DNA of 64,000 nt from Ruegeria sp. HKCCD4315 (GTDB taxonomy: Bacteria > Pseudomonadota > Alphaproteobacteria > Rhodobacterales > Rhodobacteraceae), in assembly GCF_013112245.1 (NCBI RefSeq), contig NZ_WVRN01000001.1, positions 3,537,501 to 3,601,500 on the forward strand. Reading direction: 5' to 3'. The notes below the pieces were generated by a model. It worked only from the letters and a program-made list of their open reading frames with translations. It was not told the origin of the DNA and made no database searches. Of the stretch, positions 3,707 through 14,623 are shown one piece after another (the stretch's first letter is position 1; each line of letters begins with the position of its first letter). A program made the translations under genes and the position numbers.

Positions 3707-6700
3707 ATGTCTCAGGACCTGAGCAAGTGGCTAAGCGCAATTGGATTATCTGACTACGCACAAGCCTTTCTAGACAACAAGATCGATTTTTCCATTCTGC
3801 CAGACTTGACGGCAGAAGACTTAATTGAAATCGGGGTCACTGCGGTTGGTGATCGTCGAAGGTTGTTGCGTGCCATTGAAACTCTTGATGTGGCTGAAGC
3901 AGCAACAATGCAAGACACTGCGGCGTCTATAGAACCTGCGCGACGGCAGGTCACCGTGATGTTTGTTGACCTTACAGGGTTTACAAAAATGTCCAGTGAC
4001 TTGGATGCCGAAGATTTGCACGCTTTGCTCAACCAGTTCTTTGGCAAAGTGGACAATGTTGTTGAGAAATATGGGGGGCGCATAGACAAGCATATTGGCG
4101 ATGCGGTCATGGCTGTTTTTGGCGCGCCGATATCACATACAAATGACACAGAACGGGCAGCCAGAGCGGCGGCCGAGATACATGCAGTATTGCCAACACT
4201 GACACCACCACTGTCCTGTCATATCGGTATTGCTTCGGGGCAGGTCATTGCCAGCACAACCGGCAGCCAGGCGCACACAGAATACACTGTTACCGGCGAT
4301 GGGGTCAATTTAGCCTCGCGTTTGACCGACATCTCAAAAGGTGAAGAAACGCTTGTTTCTCACGACATCCAACGCGCCTTGGGTCCGCTGTTTGTAGGCG
4401 AGTCTATCGGTGTGCAGGATATCAAAGGATTGAATGAACCCGTCGAAGTCTGGCGTCTGGACCGTTTGGCCCGGAACATTCGGACAAGACGGCATAAGTT
4501 CATCGGGCGCGATCGTGAGATGTCGTTATTTTCGGCAACGTTTGACCGCTGCAAACGGCACGGCGAAGGCGAAGTCCACGTGGTTCTGGGCGAACCGGGT
4601 ATCGGCAAGACGCATTTGTCCGAGCAGGTGGCCGAGCTGGCCAAAAGCCTGTGCTATTCGATCCACAATGGCGTTGTTATGGACTTTGGTGCGCGTGAAG
4701 GGCACTCGGCCATTCAGTCCGTGGCCCGCAGTGTTCTGGGACTTGATCCGTCGGATGGGGCAAAAACTGGCGCCGCCGTGGCCAAGGAAGCGGTCGCCAA
4801 AGGCTGGGTCAGCCCATCTAATGCAGCGCATCTCAACGCTTTACTTGAGCTTGAGCAAGATCCGGGTTTGGCCGAGGTTTATGCCGTCATGGACAACAAG
4901 ACACGGTTGCGTGGGCGCAGGCAGGTCATTGATGAGTTGTTGATGGCCCGCAGTCAAGACGCACCCTTGCTGATCCAGATCGAAGATATCCATTGGGCGT
5001 CACCCGACATTCTCGCAGCCTGCGCACATATCGCAGCAGTAACGCGGCAAATCCCTTGTGTCTTGATGATGACCAGTCGGGTTGAAGGGGACCCGATCGA
5101 TCGAGACTGGCAAATGGCCACAGAGGGCGCGCTTGTCTCTAAACTAGAGTTAGCCCCAATGGGGGAGGACCAGGCGCGGCAGCTGGTCGAAGAATTTACT
5201 GCCATCGATCCCGAGCTTTTGGACACTTGCGTCAAACGCGCCGGTGGCAACCCTCTGTTCCTGGAACAGTTGCTGCGCAACATTGATGTGCTCAAGCAGG
5301 AAACGGTTCCCGGAAGCATCCAAGGCATCGTGCAGTCACGTTTGGATGCACTTGATCGCACAAGCCGCAGCGCCATTCAGGCGGCGTCAGTGCTGGGGCA
5401 GAGATTCTCACCCGAGGTTCTGAATTACATTCTCGGCGAAGGGCATCTGGATACCACAAATCTGATCCGCTCGGCCCTGATACGAGAGGCAGGTGCAGAC
5501 CTTATGTTTGCGCACGCGCTGATCCGGGACGGATCTTATGCCACGTTGGTTAAATCCGAACGCGCGCGCTTGCATCGACAGGCGGCCAAATGGTTCGAAG
5601 ATCGTGATGCGACCCTGCGCGCACAGCATCTGGACCGGGCGGGTGCCAACAACGCGGCGCAAGCCTATCTGGACGCAGCCGACAAGCTGATTCACGCGTT
5701 CCGGTTCGACGACGCCAGCCCGTTGATCGAACGCGCTTTGGAACTGCCGTCACCCGCAGGCGTCCGGTTTGACCTGCTGTGTGCACGGGGTGAGACGCAC
5801 CGTCTGCAGGGCCTGTCTAACGAAGCTTTGCAGGAGTTCCGGGACGCGGCGGGTCTTGCGGAGACGGATGAGCAAATTAGCCGGGCGCATATTGGCCTTG
5901 CACAGGCAGCGCGACAGGCCAGCCTGTATCAGGACGCGCTTGAGGCGCTGGACACAGCTGAAGCTGCGGCTGAGCGTGCTGGCTCCGAACGGGACGTGGC
6001 CCAGATCAACTATGTGCGCGGCAATGTGTATTTCCCCTTGGGTCGCGACAAGGAAGCACTGAGTGCGAATGAGCGGGCTCTCACGCTGGCCCGCAAACTG
6101 GATTCCGTTCGCCTTGAAGTGGGGGCGCTCAGCGGATTTGGTGATGCCAACTTCATGAAAGCCACCATGAAAACGGCGACTGGCTTTTACACGCAAGCTG
6201 TTGACCGTGCGCGTGAAAAGGGGCTGGTTCGGGATTTGGCGGCCAATCTGCACAACCTGAGCGTCGCGCGCAGCTACACGGGGGATGTCGGGCAGGGGCG
6301 CGCAGACGCAAACGAAGCCATCGAAGTTTCGCAGAAGTATTTTGCTTTTGTGCCCGAATGTGTGGCTCAGACCTGCCTGGGTGTGGCCGAAACGTTTTTG
6401 GGCGATCTTGATCGAGCGCTAGAAGCATTCCGGGTTTCGGCCGAAATTGCTGAGCGTGTCGGGGCAAAACGGCTTGAGGCACAAGCGCTGGAGCATCTGG
6501 CCCGCACGCAGGTTTATGCTAGGCAAATGGATCAGGCTTTGGAAACAGGCCGACGGGCGGTTGAGATTGCACTGGAACATGGGCGGAATTTTGTAGGGCC
6601 CAAAGCACTTTCGGCGTTGGCGATGGCCGAAACCGACCCGGATGAACAAATGCGCCTGTTGAATTTGGGGGCTGAGATTATCGCAGAAGGGTGTGTCGGC

Positions 6701-6994
6701 CATAGTCATCTGCATTTTTACCCCGATGCCAGCGCAGTCATGCTGGCGCGAGGTGATTGGCAAGCGGCGAATGACTATGCGGATGGGCTGGCGGCCTTTA
6801 CGGCAGGGGAACCTTTGCCAATGGTCGATTTGTCCATCCGCCAGACGCGTTTTTTGGCGGAATGCGGGCAAATTGGCATCCTGCCACGCGAACATCAGAG
6901 TTTTGCCAATCTGCAAGCCGAGTTTGCCGAGATGGGAATTACTCAATCCCTGCTGGGGCCCGCTGATTTTCTGACGGAACAGGCAGGAGGCTGA
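3707..6994 (+). CDS. SAM domain / class III adenylate-guanylate cyclase / AAA ATPase / TPR signalling protein
   Basis: This is a 1095-residue cytoplasmic protein. Residues 1-65 resemble a SAM interaction domain. Residues 80-250 form a class III nucleotide cyclase domain with both metal-binding aspartates (D88 in FVDLTGF, D132 in GDAVMAVFG), K128, and the N201/R205 pair in VNLASRL, so it appears catalytically complete. A P-loop ATPase follows (GEPGIGKT, 295-302), then TPR-like helical repeats from about 630 to the end. The family is common in alphaproteobacteria and is thought to make cAMP under control of the ATPase/TPR module. The ATG has a good ribosome site (AGAGGGG). The stop directly abuts the next ATG, so the two genes are probably cotranslated. 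ATP rather than GTP as substrate is inferred. Confidence 0.9.
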   Translation: MSQDLSKWLSAIGLSDYAQAFLDNKIDFSILPDLTAEDLIEIGVTAVGDRRRLLRAIETLDVAEAATMQDTAASIEPARRQVTVMFVDLTGFTKMSSDLDAEDLHALLNQFFGKVDNVVEKYGGRIDKHIGDAVMAVFGAPISHTNDTERAARAAAEIHAVLPTLTPPLSCHIGIASGQVIASTTGSQAHTEYTVTGDGVNLASRLTDISKGEETLVSHDIQRALGPLFVGESIGVQDIKGLNEPVEVWRLDRLARNIRTRRHKFIGRDREMSLFSATFDRCKRHGEGEVHVVLGEPGIGKTHLSEQVAELAKSLCYSIHNGVVMDFGAREGHSAIQSVARSVLGLDPSDGAKTGAAVAKEAVAKGWVSPSNAAHLNALLELEQDPGLAEVYAVMDNKTRLRGRRQVIDELLMARSQDAPLLIQIEDIHWASPDILAACAHIAAVTRQIPCVLMMTSRVEGDPIDRDWQMATEGALVSKLELAPMGEDQARQLVEEFTAIDPELLDTCVKRAGGNPLFLEQLLRNIDVLKQETVPGSIQGIVQSRLDALDRTSRSAIQAASVLGQRFSPEVLNYILGEGHLDTTNLIRSALIREAGADLMFAHALIRDGSYATLVKSERARLHRQAAKWFEDRDATLRAQHLDRAGANNAAQAYLDAADKLIHAFRFDDASPLIERALELPSPAGVRFDLLCARGETHRLQGLSNEALQEFRDAAGLAETDEQISRAHIGLAQAARQASLYQDALEALDTAEAAAERAGSERDVAQINYVRGNVYFPLGRDKEALSANERALTLARKLDSVRLEVGALSGFGDANFMKATMKTATGFYTQAVDRAREKGLVRDLAANLHNLSVARSYTGDVGQGRADANEAIEVSQKYFAFVPECVAQTCLGVAETFLGDLDRALEAFRVSAEIAERVGAKRLEAQALEHLARTQVYARQMDQALETGRRAVEIALEHGRNFVGPKALSALAMAETDPDEQMRLLNLGAEIIAEGCVGHSHLHFYPDASAVMLARGDWQAANDYADGLAAFTAGEPLPMVDLSIRQTRFLAECGQIGILPREHQSFANLQAEFAEMGITQSLLGPADFLTEQAGG

Positions 6995-8158
6995 ATGAGC
7001 GTCGAGAAGAAGGTTTGGCTTATCTCTGGCCTGCTGACCCTTGGGCTGGCGGGTCTTTTGTTGAAACTCTGGATCGAGTTGAACCATTTCGAAGGCGATC
7101 CGACGCAGTTGCCAGATCAGGCCGCAGTAGACTCATATCTGGGTAAGCTGGATGTAGAGCCTGACTACTATGTGCGGACAGGGATTTTCATAAAGTCATT
7201 CAGTTTTCTGGGGGCCAGCGATGTTCAGGTCACGGGTTATATCTGGCAGCACTATGAGACGGGCGTGCATGACCAGATCCTCCCGAATGAGGATGAGGTC
7301 GGGTTTCTTCTGCCCGAAGCAGTAGATAGTGCAAACGGTCTGATCGCCGAGGCGTACCGACTGCCGCAACCCGACGGCGTATTGGTGGGTTGGTATTTCG
7401 AACAAACCCTGCGCCAGAGCTTTGATTACACAAGTTACCCTTTTGATCACAAAACGGTCTGGGTGCGGTTCTGGCCGTCCTCGTTTGAGGATGCCGTCGC
7501 GTTGGTTCCCGATTTCGAGGCCTATCCGGCAACCGGGCCGGACGACATTTTTGGGATCGACAACCAAATCGTGATGGGTACGTGGGAGCGGGAAAACACC
7601 TATTTCGACTATAAACTGTCAAATCTGGATACAACGCTGGGCATCGGCCAGAACGCCTATCAAACCAACGCGCCCGAGTTGCACTATAATTTCGTCATCA
7701 AACGCAATTTTGGCAATGCGTTTATCGTTCATATGGTCCCCTTGATCGTTGTGATGATGTTGCTGTTCGGTGCGGTCATGACCGTCACCCGCCGCGAGGG
7801 TTTGGCCGAGAGGCATGATTTCAGCACGTCCAGCGTGATCGGCACCTGTTCGGTTTTGTTCTTCGTGATCCTGCTGGCGCATGTGCAGCTGCGCGAAGGC
7901 TTTGCCGGCTCGCCCGTGATCTACATGGAGTCGTTCTTTTTCCTGATGTATTTCATGTTGCTGGCGGTATCGGTCAACACGTACCTATTCGCCTCCGAGG
8001 CGGTGCCGTCGCTGCGGATCATCCACTATCGGGACAATCTTATTCCCAAGGCCAGTTTCTGGCCGTTTGTGCTGCTGTGCATGGTGGCGATCACGGCTTA
8101 CAACCTCAGCCTGAAGGAAAGCCCTGAGCCGCCGCCAATCAGCACGCAAGACGGTTAA
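6995..8158 (+). CDS. membrane protein with pentameric ligand-gated ion channel-like architecture
   Basis: The 387-residue product has an N-terminal hydrophobic segment (6-25; signal or extra TM), a roughly 210-residue extracytoplasmic domain, and four C-terminal TM segments (about 242-262, 276-298, 308-332, 354-372). Two features recall pentameric ligand-gated channels (GLIC/ELIC family): a YPFD motif (148-151) at the place of the family's (F/Y)PFD motif, and an IKR (235-237) just before TM1, followed by the M1-M2-M3 spacing of the family. The second TM is rich in Ser/Thr at its start, as in pore-lining M2. This assignment comes from pattern matching and is not certain; a sensor of unknown type is the alternative. 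It starts at the base after the cyclase stop, with AGGCAGGAGG as ribosome site, so it is likely functionally linked to the cyclase. Confidence 0.55.
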   Translation: MSVEKKVWLISGLLTLGLAGLLLKLWIELNHFEGDPTQLPDQAAVDSYLGKLDVEPDYYVRTGIFIKSFSFLGASDVQVTGYIWQHYETGVHDQILPNEDEVGFLLPEAVDSANGLIAEAYRLPQPDGVLVGWYFEQTLRQSFDYTSYPFDHKTVWVRFWPSSFEDAVALVPDFEAYPATGPDDIFGIDNQIVMGTWERENTYFDYKLSNLDTTLGIGQNAYQTNAPELHYNFVIKRNFGNAFIVHMVPLIVVMMLLFGAVMTVTRREGLAERHDFSTSSVIGTCSVLFFVILLAHVQLREGFAGSPVIYMESFFFLMYFMLLAVSVNTYLFASEAVPSLRIIHYRDNLIPKASFWPFVLLCMVAITAYNLSLKESPEPPPISTQDG

Positions 8159-11100
8159 GCTACAGGTTCAAACCCCGGTTTTGGCTCGCCCTGCGCCATG
8201 TCCAGCGTGTAATCACTGACCATCTCTGACGTGCCGTCGCGCAAGTTCTTCAGGTATTTCTCTGGCTCCGCGATCACATAGGCGTATGCGGGCTTCATCA
8301 CACCGTTCACGACCACATTGATCTTCTTGCGGACATACACGTTTTCGGTCGAATTTGGACCGTGATACCCTTCCAGCTTATCCAGCTCGTGCAAGCCGGA
8401 TTCCGTCACGCGATAGACCTCACCACTGACCTGTTTGCCCATACCTTGTTGATCCACAAGCGTGGCCATACGGTGCAGGTATCCGCAGTTCGGATTGTCA
8501 CAGAATGGCTCTTTCGGGACGATCAGCGGCATGGGTTGCCGAGTGCGGGCCGGACCCACGAAGTCGTTTAGAACTTTGCTGTGCGCTTCGTGGTTCGGGA
8601 ATCCCTGTTTCAGCGAACCATATGTGAAATACAGATATGTCGGCTCTTGCACCGCCACAAAGCTTTCATCGCGGCCTTCTTCCGGGTCAGCAACCTTCAC
8701 GTTGTGATCGCGCGCCCAGTTGTCCAGCATGGTTCGGATTTCGGGCTCGATCGTCATGCCCTGCACAAAATCGATGCACGAGGTCGCGTCCATGTTTTCA
8801 GCCCCCAGCAGGATTTCAACCATCCTGGGCGCTTTGTTCATTACCGCCACATGCAGTGCAGTGAACCCGTGATCGTTGACGATGTTGACGTCGATATCGC
8901 GTTTGATCAGGTCCTGGGCAGCTTCATAGTCCGGTTTGCCCAGATCATGGCCGCTTTCGTTCAGTTCACCTTCGCCACCGGCTGCGTAATGCAACAAGGA
9001 ATCGCCATGCGCTTCGTCTACGATATTGACCCCGACGATGCCTTCGTCGATGGCGCGGAACACGCGTCTCCATTCGTTGATGTCATCCGCGGCGGCGGCC
9101 TCGCGCGCCCATTTGCAGACACGGTATTTCTGGTCGTCCAACTCCTCGAAGGCGTCTGCCAAAGCCTCCATGATCTGGTCAGGCGTGGCCATCATGCCGA
9201 TACCCATCCGACCATTTGACAAGCGCCCTTCGCGCGGACCGATGAAGTCGACACCCAGCGTCTTCAGCTTGTCGACGTTGTTCTGCGTGGTGATGTTGTT
9301 CCACATATTCGTGTTGCAAGCCGGGCAAAGGATCACCGGTTTCTTCTGGTATTGCCATGCCACAAAGACCGAGGTCAGAAGATTGTCAGCAATACCGTTG
9401 GCCACCTTTCCCATCGTGTTGCAGGTGATAGGGGCCACAATGACGCAATCGGCCCAGTCGCACAGCGCCAGATGCGAGGCCCGCACTGGCATGTCAAACT
9501 TCATATAGCGGAAATTCCACTCATCATCGTCGCGGTAATAATCGTGATGGGTGATCTTGGCGTCGATCCTCTCGGCCCCGAAATCGCGAAAGAACTTTTC
9601 GGCCGAGACCGAGGGGATCAGTTTCACGTTGTGCCCGGCATCGACGATGCGTTCGACAAGTTCAGGGATTTTATCTGCCGCAGACGAGCCGCAGGCGCAC
9701 AACAATACGTTGCGCTTGCCCACGTTGACCTGATTCATCACCCCTTTGGGATAGCCGAAAGGATTCTTCTCAAGGCTTGGTGTTTCATTCAGGTCGGAAA
9801 CTGGCAGTCCTTCTTTGCGCATCCTGGCCTGCAATTCGCCGGCCCGGATCATGTCCACTATGTCTTCCAGCTCTTCGCTTTTGCTGATGCACTCTCCTTG
9901 GAAAAACAAATACGGCACGTCTGGTCGCTCACCAAGCGTTACCAGTTGTCGCCGCATCCGGATCATATTGGGATCGCGTCCGCCTACGTCGATTTGCTTG
10001 ACAGTAGTCGCGCCGATATTCGACAGAATGCTGCGCAGCATATAGGACCAGGGGTCTTCATCTTCATAAAACAGAACCATCGTGTTGTGCTTGAGGATAC
10101 TGACAACATCGCTTGGGTCCTCGGGCGGGTCGATTTCTTCGATCATCACCAATGCGGGGTCTTCCAGATCGCGTAGGCCACGAAAAATATTGCCGCGTGG
10201 AGCTTGCCAGACCTGAGAGGTCGCGGGGCTCATGTCTACAATGGTGACAACATCGGTGTTTTCGTCATAGGCAATGCAAAGACACCAGAACTCTTCCAGC
10301 AGGGCAGTTTCCCGATAGACGTTTTCCGGCGAACGGATCGCTTCGATACCGGTGACGCGATTGAAATCGATGTTGATCATCAGGTGACGATCTTTGTTGG
10401 TATTCAGGCTTTTCAACTGTTCCTTGAACCAATCCTGCGGGGTTTGGATCGATGTGTCCTTGCGGGTAGCAAAGCTTTGGAACGTACTGCCAAGATGCAC
10501 GTTTTCAGACTGGCTGAGGTATTTTTCCGCCATTTCGTGCATGTCTTTTGCAGTGGCGACCCGGCTGACGGCCTCGGTGAACGAGGCCTCGGTCGCCCGC
10601 AGCAACTCATCCTCGTCCACGCGGTTGTCGCCGTGAATGGCCAGGCTTTCCGCCAGCACACCCAGCGAGTTCATGTTGGGCGTCGCCCGGCGGAACAGGT
10701 TGCGGCGCTTTTTGGGATCTTTCGCCAGATAGCGCGTGCTGTCGACGTAGTTGCATCGTTGTTTGAACGTTTTCAGGTGGGTTTTGACCGCAGCGCGTGC
10801 CGAGAAGCGCAGAATGCCCCGAGACCGCATCGAGGTTCCATCGCGGTCCGACATGGCCTTCCACAGCCGTTCGATCGTTGTGACCCAAAGCTTGCCGTAT
10901 TTTTCAGGATGCACGTCCATCATATGCACCAGACCGGTGCTTGGGTTGCATTTGGCGATGACGGCGAAATGGCCACCTGGCATATTTTCTTTGCCATGGG
11001 CGACACCGACCTGAAAATTCGCCACTAGAATATCGTTTTCTCCGCCCAGCCGATTGGATTCGTCGATTGCCTCAAGCAGCAGGGGAACGTTGGTTGTGTC

Positions 11101-11784
11101 TTCATCCATGAAATAGGCCTGAACCTGAACCCGGTCCCGAAGCCCTTGCGAGTGGATGTAGGTGCAGGCGACGTCAAACAGTTCCCCCAGCGAGATACCG
11201 TCATTCACCACAAAGGATGACGGCAGTGCGCATTCGCGGAAAATGTCATTCACCTCGCAACTGAACCCAAGCGCAGACATGCTGAGCGCTGCGGCTGTCA
11301 CGCTGCAACAGTTGATTGGTTGCTGAAAATTCTGCAACTGGACGCTCACCAAATCCCCGAACATGGTGGCAAAACAGGGTTTGCGTACCTCTTCCGGTAT
11401 CTTCCGCCAGTTATCGCTCGACAAATAGGCCAAACATGTGCCGTCCAATGCAAGTGCTTCAAGGCTGACAGGTATGTCCGAGATCTGAAGGTGTTCTTCG
11501 TAGAAATAATCGCCCACATCTGCGCTGGCCAGCGGTTGCCCATTTTGACGCAACTGAACGACACCGCGCAGCACAACATACATGCCCTTAGCGGGCAGGA
11601 CCGTGTTTCCGGTCACTTCGATACACTCAAAATGTGGATTGATGACAGCAGGGTTCGCGACTTCGGCCTCACCCGGCAGGACTTTGTAAATCAGGGTCCA
11701 GTCTGCGTCGCTTGGAATATATGATCTGGCATTGGCAATTTGATCTGTGGTCACAACTATGTCCCCCCCGGAGTTGCGTTTCAA
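8155..11784 (-). CDS. 1209-residue multidomain thiol enzyme: phytochelatin synthase-like / Grx-like / PPCDC-type flavoprotein / ankyrin / GGCT
   Basis: Domains in order: (1) residues 30-125, a beta-roll resembling a cyclic-nucleotide-binding domain but without the phosphate-cassette arginine; (2) 145-330, a phytochelatin synthase/peptidase C83 fold with Cys159 or 160 (NCCS), His272 (GGHFAV) and Asp290 (MMDVHPEKYG), the H-D gap of 18 equalling that of plant PCS; (3) 465-540, a weaker second copy lacking the His; (4) 555-650, a glutaredoxin-like fold without active-site Cys; (5) 690-880, a flavoprotein of the PPC-decarboxylase/EpiD family with H771 and PACNTNMW (821-828); (6) about 925-1000, ankyrin repeats; (7) 1048-1175, gamma-glutamylcyclotransferase with YGSL (1055-1058) and E1138. 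All enzymatic parts act on gamma-glutamyl or cysteinyl substrates. The longest frame opens at TTG (11784), but a GTG at 11754 lies just behind GGGGGGGA and is the better start. The end overlaps the channel gene by 4 nt, tail to tail. Confidence 0.8.
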   Translation of the reverse strand: MKRNSGGDIVVTTDQIANARSYIPSDADWTLIYKVLPGEAEVANPAVINPHFECIEVTGNTVLPAKGMYVVLRGVVQLRQNGQPLASADVGDYFYEEHLQISDIPVSLEALALDGTCLAYLSSDNWRKIPEEVRKPCFATMFGDLVSVQLQNFQQPINCCSVTAAALSMSALGFSCEVNDIFRECALPSSFVVNDGISLGELFDVACTYIHSQGLRDRVQVQAYFMDEDTTNVPLLLEAIDESNRLGGENDILVANFQVGVAHGKENMPGGHFAVIAKCNPSTGLVHMMDVHPEKYGKLWVTTIERLWKAMSDRDGTSMRSRGILRFSARAAVKTHLKTFKQRCNYVDSTRYLAKDPKKRRNLFRRATPNMNSLGVLAESLAIHGDNRVDEDELLRATEASFTEAVSRVATAKDMHEMAEKYLSQSENVHLGSTFQSFATRKDTSIQTPQDWFKEQLKSLNTNKDRHLMINIDFNRVTGIEAIRSPENVYRETALLEEFWCLCIAYDENTDVVTIVDMSPATSQVWQAPRGNIFRGLRDLEDPALVMIEEIDPPEDPSDVVSILKHNTMVLFYEDEDPWSYMLRSILSNIGATTVKQIDVGGRDPNMIRMRRQLVTLGERPDVPYLFFQGECISKSEELEDIVDMIRAGELQARMRKEGLPVSDLNETPSLEKNPFGYPKGVMNQVNVGKRNVLLCACGSSAADKIPELVERIVDAGHNVKLIPSVSAEKFFRDFGAERIDAKITHHDYYRDDDEWNFRYMKFDMPVRASHLALCDWADCVIVAPITCNTMGKVANGIADNLLTSVFVAWQYQKKPVILCPACNTNMWNNITTQNNVDKLKTLGVDFIGPREGRLSNGRMGIGMMATPDQIMEALADAFEELDDQKYRVCKWAREAAAADDINEWRRVFRAIDEGIVGVNIVDEAHGDSLLHYAAGGEGELNESGHDLGKPDYEAAQDLIKRDIDVNIVNDHGFTALHVAVMNKAPRMVEILLGAENMDATSCIDFVQGMTIEPEIRTMLDNWARDHNVKVADPEEGRDESFVAVQEPTYLYFTYGSLKQGFPNHEAHSKVLNDFVGPARTRQPMPLIVPKEPFCDNPNCGYLHRMATLVDQQGMGKQVSGEVYRVTESGLHELDKLEGYHGPNSTENVYVRKKINVVVNGVMKPAYAYVIAEPEKYLKNLRDGTSEMVSDYTLDMAQGEPKPGFEPVA

Positions 11785-12083: not shown

Positions 12084-13661
12084 TTAATCGAGGAACAGAT
12101 AGTCTAGTCGCATTACGGCGCTGGCCTTTTCCTGACTCACACCAAGAAACCCGGCGATGACAGCCTCGTTTTCGCTGCGCGAGGCCGTTTCACGCAGGCG
12201 CAGATAATTCTCAAGCCCGGCCGCCCGGATTTGTTGTGATTCATAGTTCAGATCATTGCGCAGCGTTGGCACCAGTTGTGCCACGTTTTCTGCAGGGCTG
12301 TTTTCTCCGGCCAGCCCGACCCGGCGCGCATGGCCGATCAGATAGTCGTCCGAATACTCGCATTCGATCTCGAGCACATGGGTTTTGGCCTGATCGCCGC
12401 AGAAATCCTCAAGCACGTCAAGATTGGCGGGGTCGAGGCACAGAACAAGTTGATCCGACCCGAAACTGTCAAACAACATTCTCACCACGGCCCGTCTGTG
12501 GCGCGAGCGTTTTGCAAGGCTCGTTTCTATCCCGCCCAGATCGGGCATCTGTGTCTCTTCTTCGTTGAACAGGTACTCGACACAGGGGATATCGGTTTCG
12601 GATGCGATCTGATCAACCAGTCGCTTGGCGACGTGCCATTTCTTGCAGACGATGACGAAAAGCTCGCGCTCGGGGCCCAACGCGCGACCGGCTTCCCAGA
12701 AACGTTGTCCAAATCGGCGGCCAATGCGCCCGCGTCCGGTCAGAAACGCAAACAGGTTGCGCCCTTCGTTCGAGACCGGAAACTCAATCCCTTCACTAGC
12801 ATAAAGCGACCCCAGGCGATCTTTTAGCTCGTGTGCTTCGGGGCTGATCTTTCGGGCAAACAGATAGTCCTGACCCAAAAGCATGTCATAGTGATCGTTG
12901 TAGAAAGTGACCGGCATTCCGTAGTCTGAAAACATCAGGAAGGTTGGTGTGCGGTTTTCGATCTCACCCTTCGGTATCAGATGGCGGACCAATGTCTGAA
13001 AGAAGGTCTCGTCCGGGATCCAGGTGGTTGAGAAAAACCGGATCACGTCTCGTCGCTGGCGCAAAAAGTCCAGGATCTTCTCAACGGTGCGGCGGCGCAG
13101 GCACCACCATTGGCTGCCGATCATAATCTGCAGGTCTTCGGGAATACCCCGGGTCAGACCAAAACGTTTCTGCATCTCGTAGGCGGAGTAAAACAGTTTG
13201 GGCTGCGTGCGTTCATTGAAATGATGGCGATAGATCAGACGGTCTTCTTTCATGCCGGTCTTGATCCAGTTGCTTTCAAAGAAATCGTGGCTTTCGATGA
13301 AATCCTTGTCGCGATCATCCAGAAAACGGTGGGTATATTCGGCAGTTTTGATGGCCATGCAATCGCCAGACAGCATGTAGAAATGCGTGGCGCGGGGGAA
13401 CGCCTCGACCGCGGCCTTCAAGGCGTTCAGTGTGGCGTGCACCAGTGACCACTCTCCCCACCCGCATTTGATGCGCTTTGCAGCGAAAGTCACATTGGGG
13501 TTTTCGCGCAGCGCGCTACGGATCTGGTCATACGCAGCAGCACTTGCACGTGCATCAAAGTGGATCGCCATGCAATCGCCCGCAGCGGTCAGCTGTTCGG
13601 CCTGCGCGATGATGGCCTCGGGGTCCTTGTGGCACAGCAATATGTAGGCAATCTTTGCCAT
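12084..13661 (-). CDS. Core-2/I-branching (GT14-like) glycosyltransferase with C-terminal extension
   Basis: The 525-residue protein begins MAKIAYILLCHKDP, the usual opening of bacterial beta-1,6-N-acetylglucosaminyltransferase-like proteins. The N-terminal 280 residues carry family features: FYMLSGDCMAIK, FIESHDFF and a late WIPDETFFQTL block. The C-terminal 240 residues (FVIVCKKWHVAKRLVD onward) form a separate domain commonly fused to this enzyme in Rhodobacteraceae. The frame extends upstream to 13799, but the ATG at 13661 fits the family start; the ribosome site is weak. A sulfotransferase gene diverges 143 bp away, which suggests synthesis of a sulfated surface glycan. Donor and acceptor are unknown. 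Confidence 0.75.
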   Translation of the reverse strand: MAKIAYILLCHKDPEAIIAQAEQLTAAGDCMAIHFDARASAAAYDQIRSALRENPNVTFAAKRIKCGWGEWSLVHATLNALKAAVEAFPRATHFYMLSGDCMAIKTAEYTHRFLDDRDKDFIESHDFFESNWIKTGMKEDRLIYRHHFNERTQPKLFYSAYEMQKRFGLTRGIPEDLQIMIGSQWWCLRRRTVEKILDFLRQRRDVIRFFSTTWIPDETFFQTLVRHLIPKGEIENRTPTFLMFSDYGMPVTFYNDHYDMLLGQDYLFARKISPEAHELKDRLGSLYASEGIEFPVSNEGRNLFAFLTGRGRIGRRFGQRFWEAGRALGPERELFVIVCKKWHVAKRLVDQIASETDIPCVEYLFNEEETQMPDLGGIETSLAKRSRHRRAVVRMLFDSFGSDQLVLCLDPANLDVLEDFCGDQAKTHVLEIECEYSDDYLIGHARRVGLAGENSPAENVAQLVPTLRNDLNYESQQIRAAGLENYLRLRETASRSENEAVIAGFLGVSQEKASAVMRLDYLFLD

Positions 13662-13804
13662 TGAGATCAGGTAATTTCCGTTTCTGCCCGGTTTCAACCG
13701 TGATACTGAGGATGCGCGATTGAATAAACAGAATAATTTTGGTTCTTTATTACCAAACGCTGGCGTATCGGATCGAGACCTGACCAGCGAAGGAGGCACA
13801 GCAG

Positions 13805-14623
13805 ATGGGGTTTCCCGGTACCTGGATGACCGAGAGTGAAAGCATGGTGTACCGTGTGGTGCCCAAATGTGCGTGCTCGACCATTGGCCAGATCATGTAT
13901 TATTCGGATCACGGTCAGTTTTTTGATGGCGACATCCATGATGCCAAGGACGGTATGCACAAATGGGCTTTTGACCAGAGTCAGGGCCTGATCACCAATA
14001 ACGTGCGCAGCCACGCCTCATATTCATTTACCTGCGTGCGCAACCCCTATACCCGCATCCTAAGTTCGTTCTTTGACAAGATCTGCGGCATCCAGCGCAA
14101 CGGCAAGCGATACCGGGGCAATCTGGTGCCGACGCTGATCTACAACTACGGGATCGAAGTTGGCGGAGATGACGGCAAGGGCGAATTCGATCAAATCGCC
14201 AGCTTCCGCCGGTTCCTGCTGTTTGCGCGCGACACGATCCGCTGGCGGCGTCCGATGGACCCGGACATTCACTGGTCAGCCATGTCGGGTCATGTGTCGA
14301 CCTTCATCGTGAATGGCGGGCGTTACGATCGGATTTTCTGGACCGAAGCGTTCAACGACGGGATGCAGGGTGTTCTGGATCATGTCGAATTGAAGCACCC
14401 CGTTGCATTGGCCGAGATTCCGCGATTCAACGAATCCGAAGGCCACGGCCCCAAACGTGCCCATCCGGTCGAGGATTACTTTGACGATCTGTCGATGCAT
14501 CTGGTCTACGAAATCTACAAACAGGATTTTGAGCTGTTCAAATACGATTTCGAAAACCCGGCCAACAAGATGCCGATCGGCGAAATCGATCTGGATGAAA
14601 TTCACGCCAAACTGGGTGATTGA
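13805..14623 (+). CDS. sulfotransferase family 2 protein
   Basis: The 272-residue cytoplasmic enzyme should transfer sulfate from PAPS. The 5'-phosphosulfate loop is VPKCACST (19-26), where the second Cys replaces the more usual Gly/Asn, and the 3'-phosphate motif is RNPYTRILSSFFDK (79-92). Both are typical of carbohydrate sulfotransferases of the Sulfotransfer_2 group. GGAGGCACAGCAG precedes the ATG. It is transcribed away from the GT14-like glycosyltransferase, which is its probable partner in building a sulfated polysaccharide. The acceptor is not visible. Confidence 0.8.
   Translation: MGFPGTWMTESESMVYRVVPKCACSTIGQIMYYSDHGQFFDGDIHDAKDGMHKWAFDQSQGLITNNVRSHASYSFTCVRNPYTRILSSFFDKICGIQRNGKRYRGNLVPTLIYNYGIEVGGDDGKGEFDQIASFRRFLLFARDTIRWRRPMDPDIHWSAMSGHVSTFIVNGGRYDRIFWTEAFNDGMQGVLDHVELKHPVALAEIPRFNESEGHGPKRAHPVEDYFDDLSMHLVYEIYKQDFELFKYDFENPANKMPIGEIDLDEIHAKLGD

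Follow-up and report, generated by a model that had tools for sequence, protein, structure and literature searches.

What does a single protein do that carries a phytochelatin synthase (PCS)-like domain, a flavoprotein domain of the cysteine-decarboxylating type and a cyclotransferase domain for gamma-glutamyl compounds? The question is raised by an open reading frame (ORF) at 8155-11784, minus strand, in a stretch of 64,000 nucleotides from Ruegeria sp. HKCCD4315 (contig NZ_WVRN01000001.1, positions 3,537,501 to 3,601,500), referred to as the window. We propose that the encoded protein, here called the multienzyme, is a single-chain and probably signal-linked line for glutathione processing, a reading whose full pathway we place a little short of an even chance. 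That its architecture and conserved residue signature are real we regard as nearly certain.

Architecture of the multienzyme

The ORF, pointed out in a preliminary description of this DNA, is intact and comprises 1209 codons when opened at a TTG. The GTG at 11752-11754 is probably the start, giving a protein of 1199 aa, since 19 of the 21 best homologues have lengths of 1193-1208 aa and a G-rich run is located just 5' of this codon. Residue numbers refer to the 1209-aa reading throughout. The chain consists of seven modules in the order cyclic-nucleotide-binding (CNB)-like, PCS-like, second papain-like, glutaredoxin fold, flavoprotein, ankyrin and GGACT. The features of the gene are:

8155..11754, minus strand: gene of the multienzyme, probably 1199 aa when read from the GTG; the ORF opens at 11784
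11365..11727, minus strand: CNB-like domain, residues ~20-140, recognized by its fold
10801..11364, minus strand: PCS-like papain-fold domain, residues ~141-328, with Q154, C160, H272 and D290 (profile, predicted structure, conservation)
11305..11307, minus strand: codon of C160, the predicted catalytic Cys (conservation)
10090..10800, minus strand: second papain-like fold, residues ~343-549, Cys and His positions replaced
9790..10107, minus strand: glutaredoxin fold, residues ~560-665, CPYC motif reading DPWS
9130..9717, minus strand: HFCD flavoprotein domain (PPCDC/EpiD-type), residues ~690-885, with H771, N789, N824, M827 and W828
9316..9318, minus strand: codon of C823, Cys in 79/79 family rows and Met in 109/109 CoaBC controls
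9214..9216, minus strand: codon of N857, which occupies the site of Cys175, the reductive residue in AtHAL3a
8755..9129, minus strand: ankyrin repeat region, residues ~886-1010 (Pfam and predicted structure)
8215..8637, minus strand: GGACT-type cyclotransferase domain, residues ~1050-1190, with YGSL 1055-1058, E1138 (aligned to E82 of GGACT) and a C1095-x4-C1100-x3-H1104 insert

Pfam profiles detected Flavoprotein at 692-878 (3.5e-27), GGACT at 1052-1176 (1.3e-14) and Phytochelatin at 154-323 (1.4e-11), each above its cut-off, well beyond chance expectation, and each where the preliminary description had located the corresponding fold. Ankyrin repeats were found near 950-1000, and a cNMP_binding match at 64-129 remained below threshold (0.028). 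The signature residues named earlier were all recovered (C159, C160, H272 and D290 with a His-Asp gap of 18, H771, PACNTNMW 821-828, YGSL 1055-1058, E1138). Profiles, predicted structure and conservation thus bear out the three enzymatic domains in their folds and catalytic residues, but the set was incomplete, since four further modules are present.

Conservation was evaluated in an alignment of 70 rows, i.e. the window protein and P0001-P0069, which extends down to ~50% identity and leaves out P0070 and P0071. The catalytic residues of the PCS-like, flavoprotein and GGACT domains are invariant in every row reaching them. The mean share of the majority residue is 0.83 in the PCS and flavoprotein domains, 0.74 in the GGACT domain and 0.60-0.68 in the remaining domains.

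Catalytic domains

The PCS-like domain scores 44.5 bits against PF05023 (cut-off 24.9) and is the only PCS domain of the host genome. H272 and D290 line up with the His and Asp of Alr0975, and both are kept in 69/69 rows. For the nucleophile, either Cys159 or Cys160 had been suggested. We prefer C160 as the candidate, since it is Cys in 68/68 rows, whereas C159 is replaced by Ser in 4 of these 68. In comparison to Alr0975/NsPCS, a primitive phytochelatin synthase of PF05023, the domain is only 18-22% identical, and it shares its chain with six further modules, the second papain fold included. NsPCS, a cyanobacterial PCS-like enzyme, converts glutathione to gamma-Glu-Cys (PMC12065762).

In the flavoprotein domain H771, N789, N824, M827 and W828 are each present in 70/70 rows, the last three within PACNTNMW. 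HFCD cysteine decarboxylases use an exposed C-terminal cysteine. Residues of AtHAL3a were mapped by pairwise alignment onto 79 family rows (the window protein and 78 of P0001-P0080; P0076 and P0077 have no flavoprotein part and were left out), and the controls were the 109 proteins of CoaBC type within the top 120 of 158 listed matches. The domain has the fold of AtHAL3a/CoaC and equivalents of His90, Asn108, Asn142 and Met145, and those of His90, Asn142 and Met145 are each kept in 79/79 rows. It differs from these enzymes in two positions. The Cys175 position is Asn (N857) in 79/79 rows, whereas Cys was read there in 85/109 controls (19 Ser, 3 Glu, 2 Thr), whose pairwise-aligned positions may be misplaced, the Asn142 position being Asn in 90/109 (18 Glu, 1 His). 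The Met141 position, located in the PxMNxxMW motif, is Cys (C823) in all family rows in contrast to Met in all controls.

In AtHAL3a His90, N142 and M145 serve oxidation and decarboxylation, and Cys175 is required for the second, reductive step (PMC9604783). With the equivalents of the former three kept and the Cys175 position uniformly Asn, the family appears to retain the first half-reaction but not the residue known to serve the second. The best structural match of the predicted flavoprotein model is the C175S ene-thiol complex. With Asn at the reductive position and Cys at the Met141 position, aminoethenethiol is a likelier product than a cysteamine-type aminothiol.

Among NCBIfam models the domain is nearest to CoaBC, yet it stays below the equivalog cut-offs (TIGR00521, 129.8 bits vs 219.7; TIGR02113, 98 vs 261.4). 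The host possesses a separate CoaBC with 411.8 bits for TIGR00521. In a midpoint-rooted tree of 38 flavoprotein domains (the window, 23 other family rows, 13 CoaBC rows and AtHAL3a) the family is set apart from CoaBC/HAL3 (100/99), with an unsure placement of AtHAL3a. The EpiD type is characterized by an HFCD fold that keeps the catalytic His and Asn but has no reductive Cys, and the domain shows this combination; in sequence, however, it scores nearer to CoaC than to the peptidyl-cysteine decarboxylases EpiD, MrsD and TvaF. For the incorporation of sulfur into tropodithietic acid by roseobacters, a PPCDC-like flavoprotein, TdaF, is likewise proposed to work on a cysteine-derived thiol, but it is described as a separate predicted enzyme, and the excerpts of that source describe no PCS or GGACT partner (PMC7497051).

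The last domain had been described as GGCT. Its best solved match is GGACT instead (1vkb, 8.6e-10, vs 0.11 for the GGCT 2pn7), and it scores 55.2 bits against PF06094 (cut-off 22.8). E1138 aligns with the catalytic Glu82 of GGACT and is kept in 69/69 rows. The substrates described are gamma-glutamylamines for GGACT, gamma-glutamyl amino acids for GGCT and glutathione for ChaC (PMC12756093); the distinction between GGCT and GGACT is also made in PMC4919911. In contrast to human and mouse GGACT (A2LD1), the domain is fused to other modules and carries a C-x4-C-x3-H insert (window 8473-8502, residues 1095-1104), which is absent from mouse GGACT by pairwise alignment. The three residues of this insert are invariant in a 20-row alignment, and it might hold a metal or the substrate thiol.

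Modules without catalytic residues

The second papain-like fold is probably a degenerate copy. In the glutaredoxin fold, for which NCBIfam gives a hint at 584-656 (0.18), Pro624 is kept in 70/70 rows. The catalytic Cys of CPYC/CGFS was not found in these rows: position 577 is Asp in 67/70, Gly in two and Ala in one, and never Cys.

Proposed glutathione-processing line

From folds (profile and predicted model), residues, conservation and gene linkage, all of them observed, we infer the following reactions, substrate, product and regulation. The PCS-like domain would attack glutathione via C160 and release glycine, leaving gamma-Glu-Cys. The FMN-dependent flavoprotein would oxidize and decarboxylate the exposed C-terminal cysteine and, since the reducing residue of the CoA enzyme is Asn here, would halt at gamma-glutamyl-2-aminoethenethiol (204.057 Da, calculated by hand as gamma-Glu-Cys minus CO2 and H2). 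Finally, the GGACT domain would cyclize the gamma-glutamyl cap to 5-oxoproline and liberate aminoethenethiol. The latter should tautomerize to mercaptoacetaldimine, which could give mercaptoacetaldehyde and ammonia by hydrolysis. The glutaredoxin fold, which lacks its catalytic Cys, may be a holder for the glutathionyl part.

This order of steps had been suggested before. It is plausible and gains from the GGACT-like nature of the third domain, since gamma-Glu-Cys, once decarboxylated, no longer carries an alpha-carboxylate on what was its cysteine and is a compound of the gamma-glutamylamine type; the aminothiol originally proposed as end product has become less probable with Asn at the Cys175 position. 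The host genome contains one glutathione-synthetase match (PF02955) and one match to Hydantoinase_B, a family that includes 5-oxoprolinases.

Relatives and distribution

Some relatives show other domain orders. P0070 and P0071 from ENA, 71% identical to each other, are arranged as glutaredoxin remnant, flavoprotein, ankyrin, GGACT and PCS, with the PCS part at the C-terminal end (3.2e-15 and 7.4e-16, compared with 1.2 for the best of 30 shuffled controls), which suggests that the parts were joined independently. P0078 from EukProt has the glutaredoxin-flavoprotein-ankyrin core and begins with a region that weakly matches EF-hand (0.027, under the cut-off). Seven protist-type rows cluster inside the family in the flavoprotein tree (93/95); owing to this grouping P0070, P0071, P0075, P0079 and P0080 are presumably eukaryotic.

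The multienzyme was found at 39 loci in one scan of a collection of 84,980 species genomes, a count that is a lower bound because the scan matches exact short patterns. They belong mainly to Ruegeria. The others fall in some further Rhodobacteraceae, in Rhodospirillaceae, in SAR116 and in alphaproteobacterial records without classification, and one derives from a metagenome-assembled genome labelled Aestuariirhabdus. The full gene is present in 18 of 61 relatives, all within the genus (18/37 genus genomes). At 0.001, 52/61 relatives give a match, but outside the 18 full-length cases this is nearly always the CoaBC-like flavoprotein region alone. The PCS part is complete in 1/385 genomes of the class sample, the window's own, and a second genome has a partial stand-alone match. 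In the phylum sample of 398 genomes the core was found at 1e-40 in that of the window only. With single carriers in both samples, the multienzyme is rare and patchy in its occurrence. A short stand-alone PCS-like frame of 249 aa is present in another alphaproteobacterial genome (L053, G293:C12:200084-200299; partial match, E 6.3e-9).

Neighboring genes

Two genes on the opposite strand adjoin the multienzyme:

6995..8158, plus strand: membrane protein, 387 aa, with one N-terminal hydrophobic segment, a soluble part of ~200 aa and a hydrophobic C-terminal part
3707..6994, plus strand: SAM-class III cyclase-AAA-TPR protein, 1095 aa, a conserved neighbor

The membrane protein may be receptor- or channel-like. 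Its YPFDHKTVWVRFW stretch before the hydrophobic C-terminal part recalls pentameric ligand-gated channels, with no profile match. The same 18 genus genomes carry the multienzyme, the membrane gene and the cyclase (at least 73% identity), adjoining by coordinates, a joint occurrence whose weight is limited by the kinship of these genomes. In 6/18 cyclase matches one stop is counted inside the matched stretch; this stop probably sits at the C-terminal end, because cyclase frames of ~1090 codons were found in related named loci.

In the neighbor table of 39 loci, which leaves out L001-L012 and L052-L054, the cyclase adjoins the multienzyme in 33. For the membrane gene, ORF comparison shows the same in 31 loci, and tblastn adds L031. 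The adjoining cyclase is convergent with the multienzyme in 31 of the 33 cases. In L049 it precedes the multienzyme by 55 bp in the same orientation, and in L035 multienzyme, cyclase and membrane gene follow each other on one strand. There a distant copy of the membrane protein (L035:10695-12863; 33% identity over 323 residues) is fused behind a Cache-type sensor part (dCache_1 1.4e-8, below cut-off; MCP-like_PDC_1 5.4e-7, above cut-off), in line with a receptor role. The membrane protein and the cyclase would switch the glutathione-processing line on.

Other neighbors were seen in loci of Rhodospirillaceae and of one unclassified alphaproteobacterium. Upstream on the same strand are a methyltransferase (L038:9020-9844; homologue L045:9031-9861) and a weakly MetE-like protein (L040:456-1631; homologue L041:3278-4435), which possibly hint at thiol methylation. 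In the window, 12084-14623, next to the multienzyme and its neighbors, encodes a Core-2/I-branching glycosyltransferase together with DUF5928 and a divergent sulfotransferase.

Objections and alternatives

Several observations weigh against the glutathione line. The PCS Asp reads Glu in P0070 and P0071. P0074 from EukProt has the glutaredoxin-flavoprotein-ankyrin core and GGACT but no PCS, and the short, bacterial-type P0072 and P0073 consist of glutaredoxin fold, flavoprotein and ankyrin only, without PCS and GGACT, so the modules can exist apart. Besides the CoA enzyme, the known HFCD cysteine decarboxylases (EpiD, MrsD) take peptides. In the CNB-like domain the phosphate-binding Arg after Pro (PRxA) is not present at its position in 18/18 aligned rows, and 3/18 have an Arg elsewhere within 24 columns around the cassette site. 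Furthermore, six loci (Rhodospirillaceae, SAR116, unclassified alphaproteobacteria) have neither cyclase nor membrane gene in the covered flanks, the DNA of four (L038, L043, L045, L046) ending close to the multienzyme on one side. Because of the missing Arg and these six loci, control by a cyclic nucleotide is unproven.

The same line could also yield another product. C823 could stand in for the lost Cys175 and complete the reduction to gamma-glutamyl-cysteamine, expected to be an acceptable GGACT substrate, and then to cysteamine; an invariant Cys at a position where every CoaBC control has Met may mean that the lost Cys has moved. This outcome is nevertheless unlikely, since the reductive position is N857 in all 79 rows and the ene-thiol complex of C175S is the closest structure.

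Three modules appear to be catalytically inactive: the CNB-like domain misses its Arg, the second papain fold its Cys and His, and the glutaredoxin fold its Cys. In addition, the neighboring genes encode a cyclase and a membrane protein of sensor-like appearance. The multienzyme may thus be a glutathione-sensing scaffold that binds gamma-glutamyl ligands and reports them via the ankyrin and CNB-like parts, with slow or partial turnover, or its three sites may serve unrelated substrates. We consider this quite improbable, as a pure scaffold would not need three catalytic sets that remain unchanged over 70 rows to ~50% identity.

The papain-fold and flavoprotein domains could act on the C terminus of a peptide or protein, as in EpiD, MrsD and TvaF. 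However, the CoaBC and CoaC profiles (1.3e-37 and 5.3e-28) match far better than the peptide decarboxylase CypD (0.038), no conserved small precursor stood out among the compared neighbors (ORFs of at least 90 aa), and the fused glutaredoxin and GGACT folds both indicate gamma-glutamyl substrates; we hold out little prospect for a peptide substrate. A Pycsar-type defense or stress module, with the multienzyme as an effector depleting glutathione, is very improbable: the cyclase matches PADLOC PycC models (best 1.1e-20), the effector would carry a CNB-like domain and a membrane partner exists, but the PycC match falls in the class III cyclase domain, multienzyme and membrane protein have no PADLOC match at 0.01, and the CNB-like domain lacks its phosphate-binding Arg.

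Significance

In an open-access literature search no paper describing the multienzyme was found, and none mentioned phytochelatin synthase, phosphopantothenoylcysteine decarboxylase and gamma-glutamylcyclotransferase side by side. To our knowledge, PCS-like, HFCD flavoprotein and GGACT activities have not been described in one system, and aminoethenethiol or mercaptoacetaldehyde, a small reactive thiol, is not known to us as a dedicated product of glutathione. The conserved combination of seven modules with three full catalytic sets therefore appears to be new, while its component families are ordinary. It is conceivable, though doubtful, that the proposed line is a new route of glutathione breakdown, in which deglycylation, oxidative decarboxylation and decapping on one chain lead to aminoethenethiol or mercaptoacetaldehyde under a membrane receptor and a cyclase in marine alphaproteobacteria, and which is permuted or shortened in protists.

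GGT represents a known catabolic route of glutathione, and its cutting order and sulfur product would differ from those of the proposed line. If the pathway is true, the same would hold for the ChaC and GGP routes as outlined in excerpts of PMC12756093, both in the order of cutting and in the sulfur product. The presence of GGACT rather than GGCT on the chain would be explained, and marine sulfur chemistry would gain a new dedicated thiol. Two questions become testable, namely what PCS-like proteins do apart from making phytochelatins, and what decides whether an HFCD flavoprotein releases an ene-thiol or a thiol; the N857/C823 pair offers a natural experiment on the latter. Should the pathway prove wrong, the literature searched would still contain no description of a conserved seven-module protein with three complete catalytic sets.
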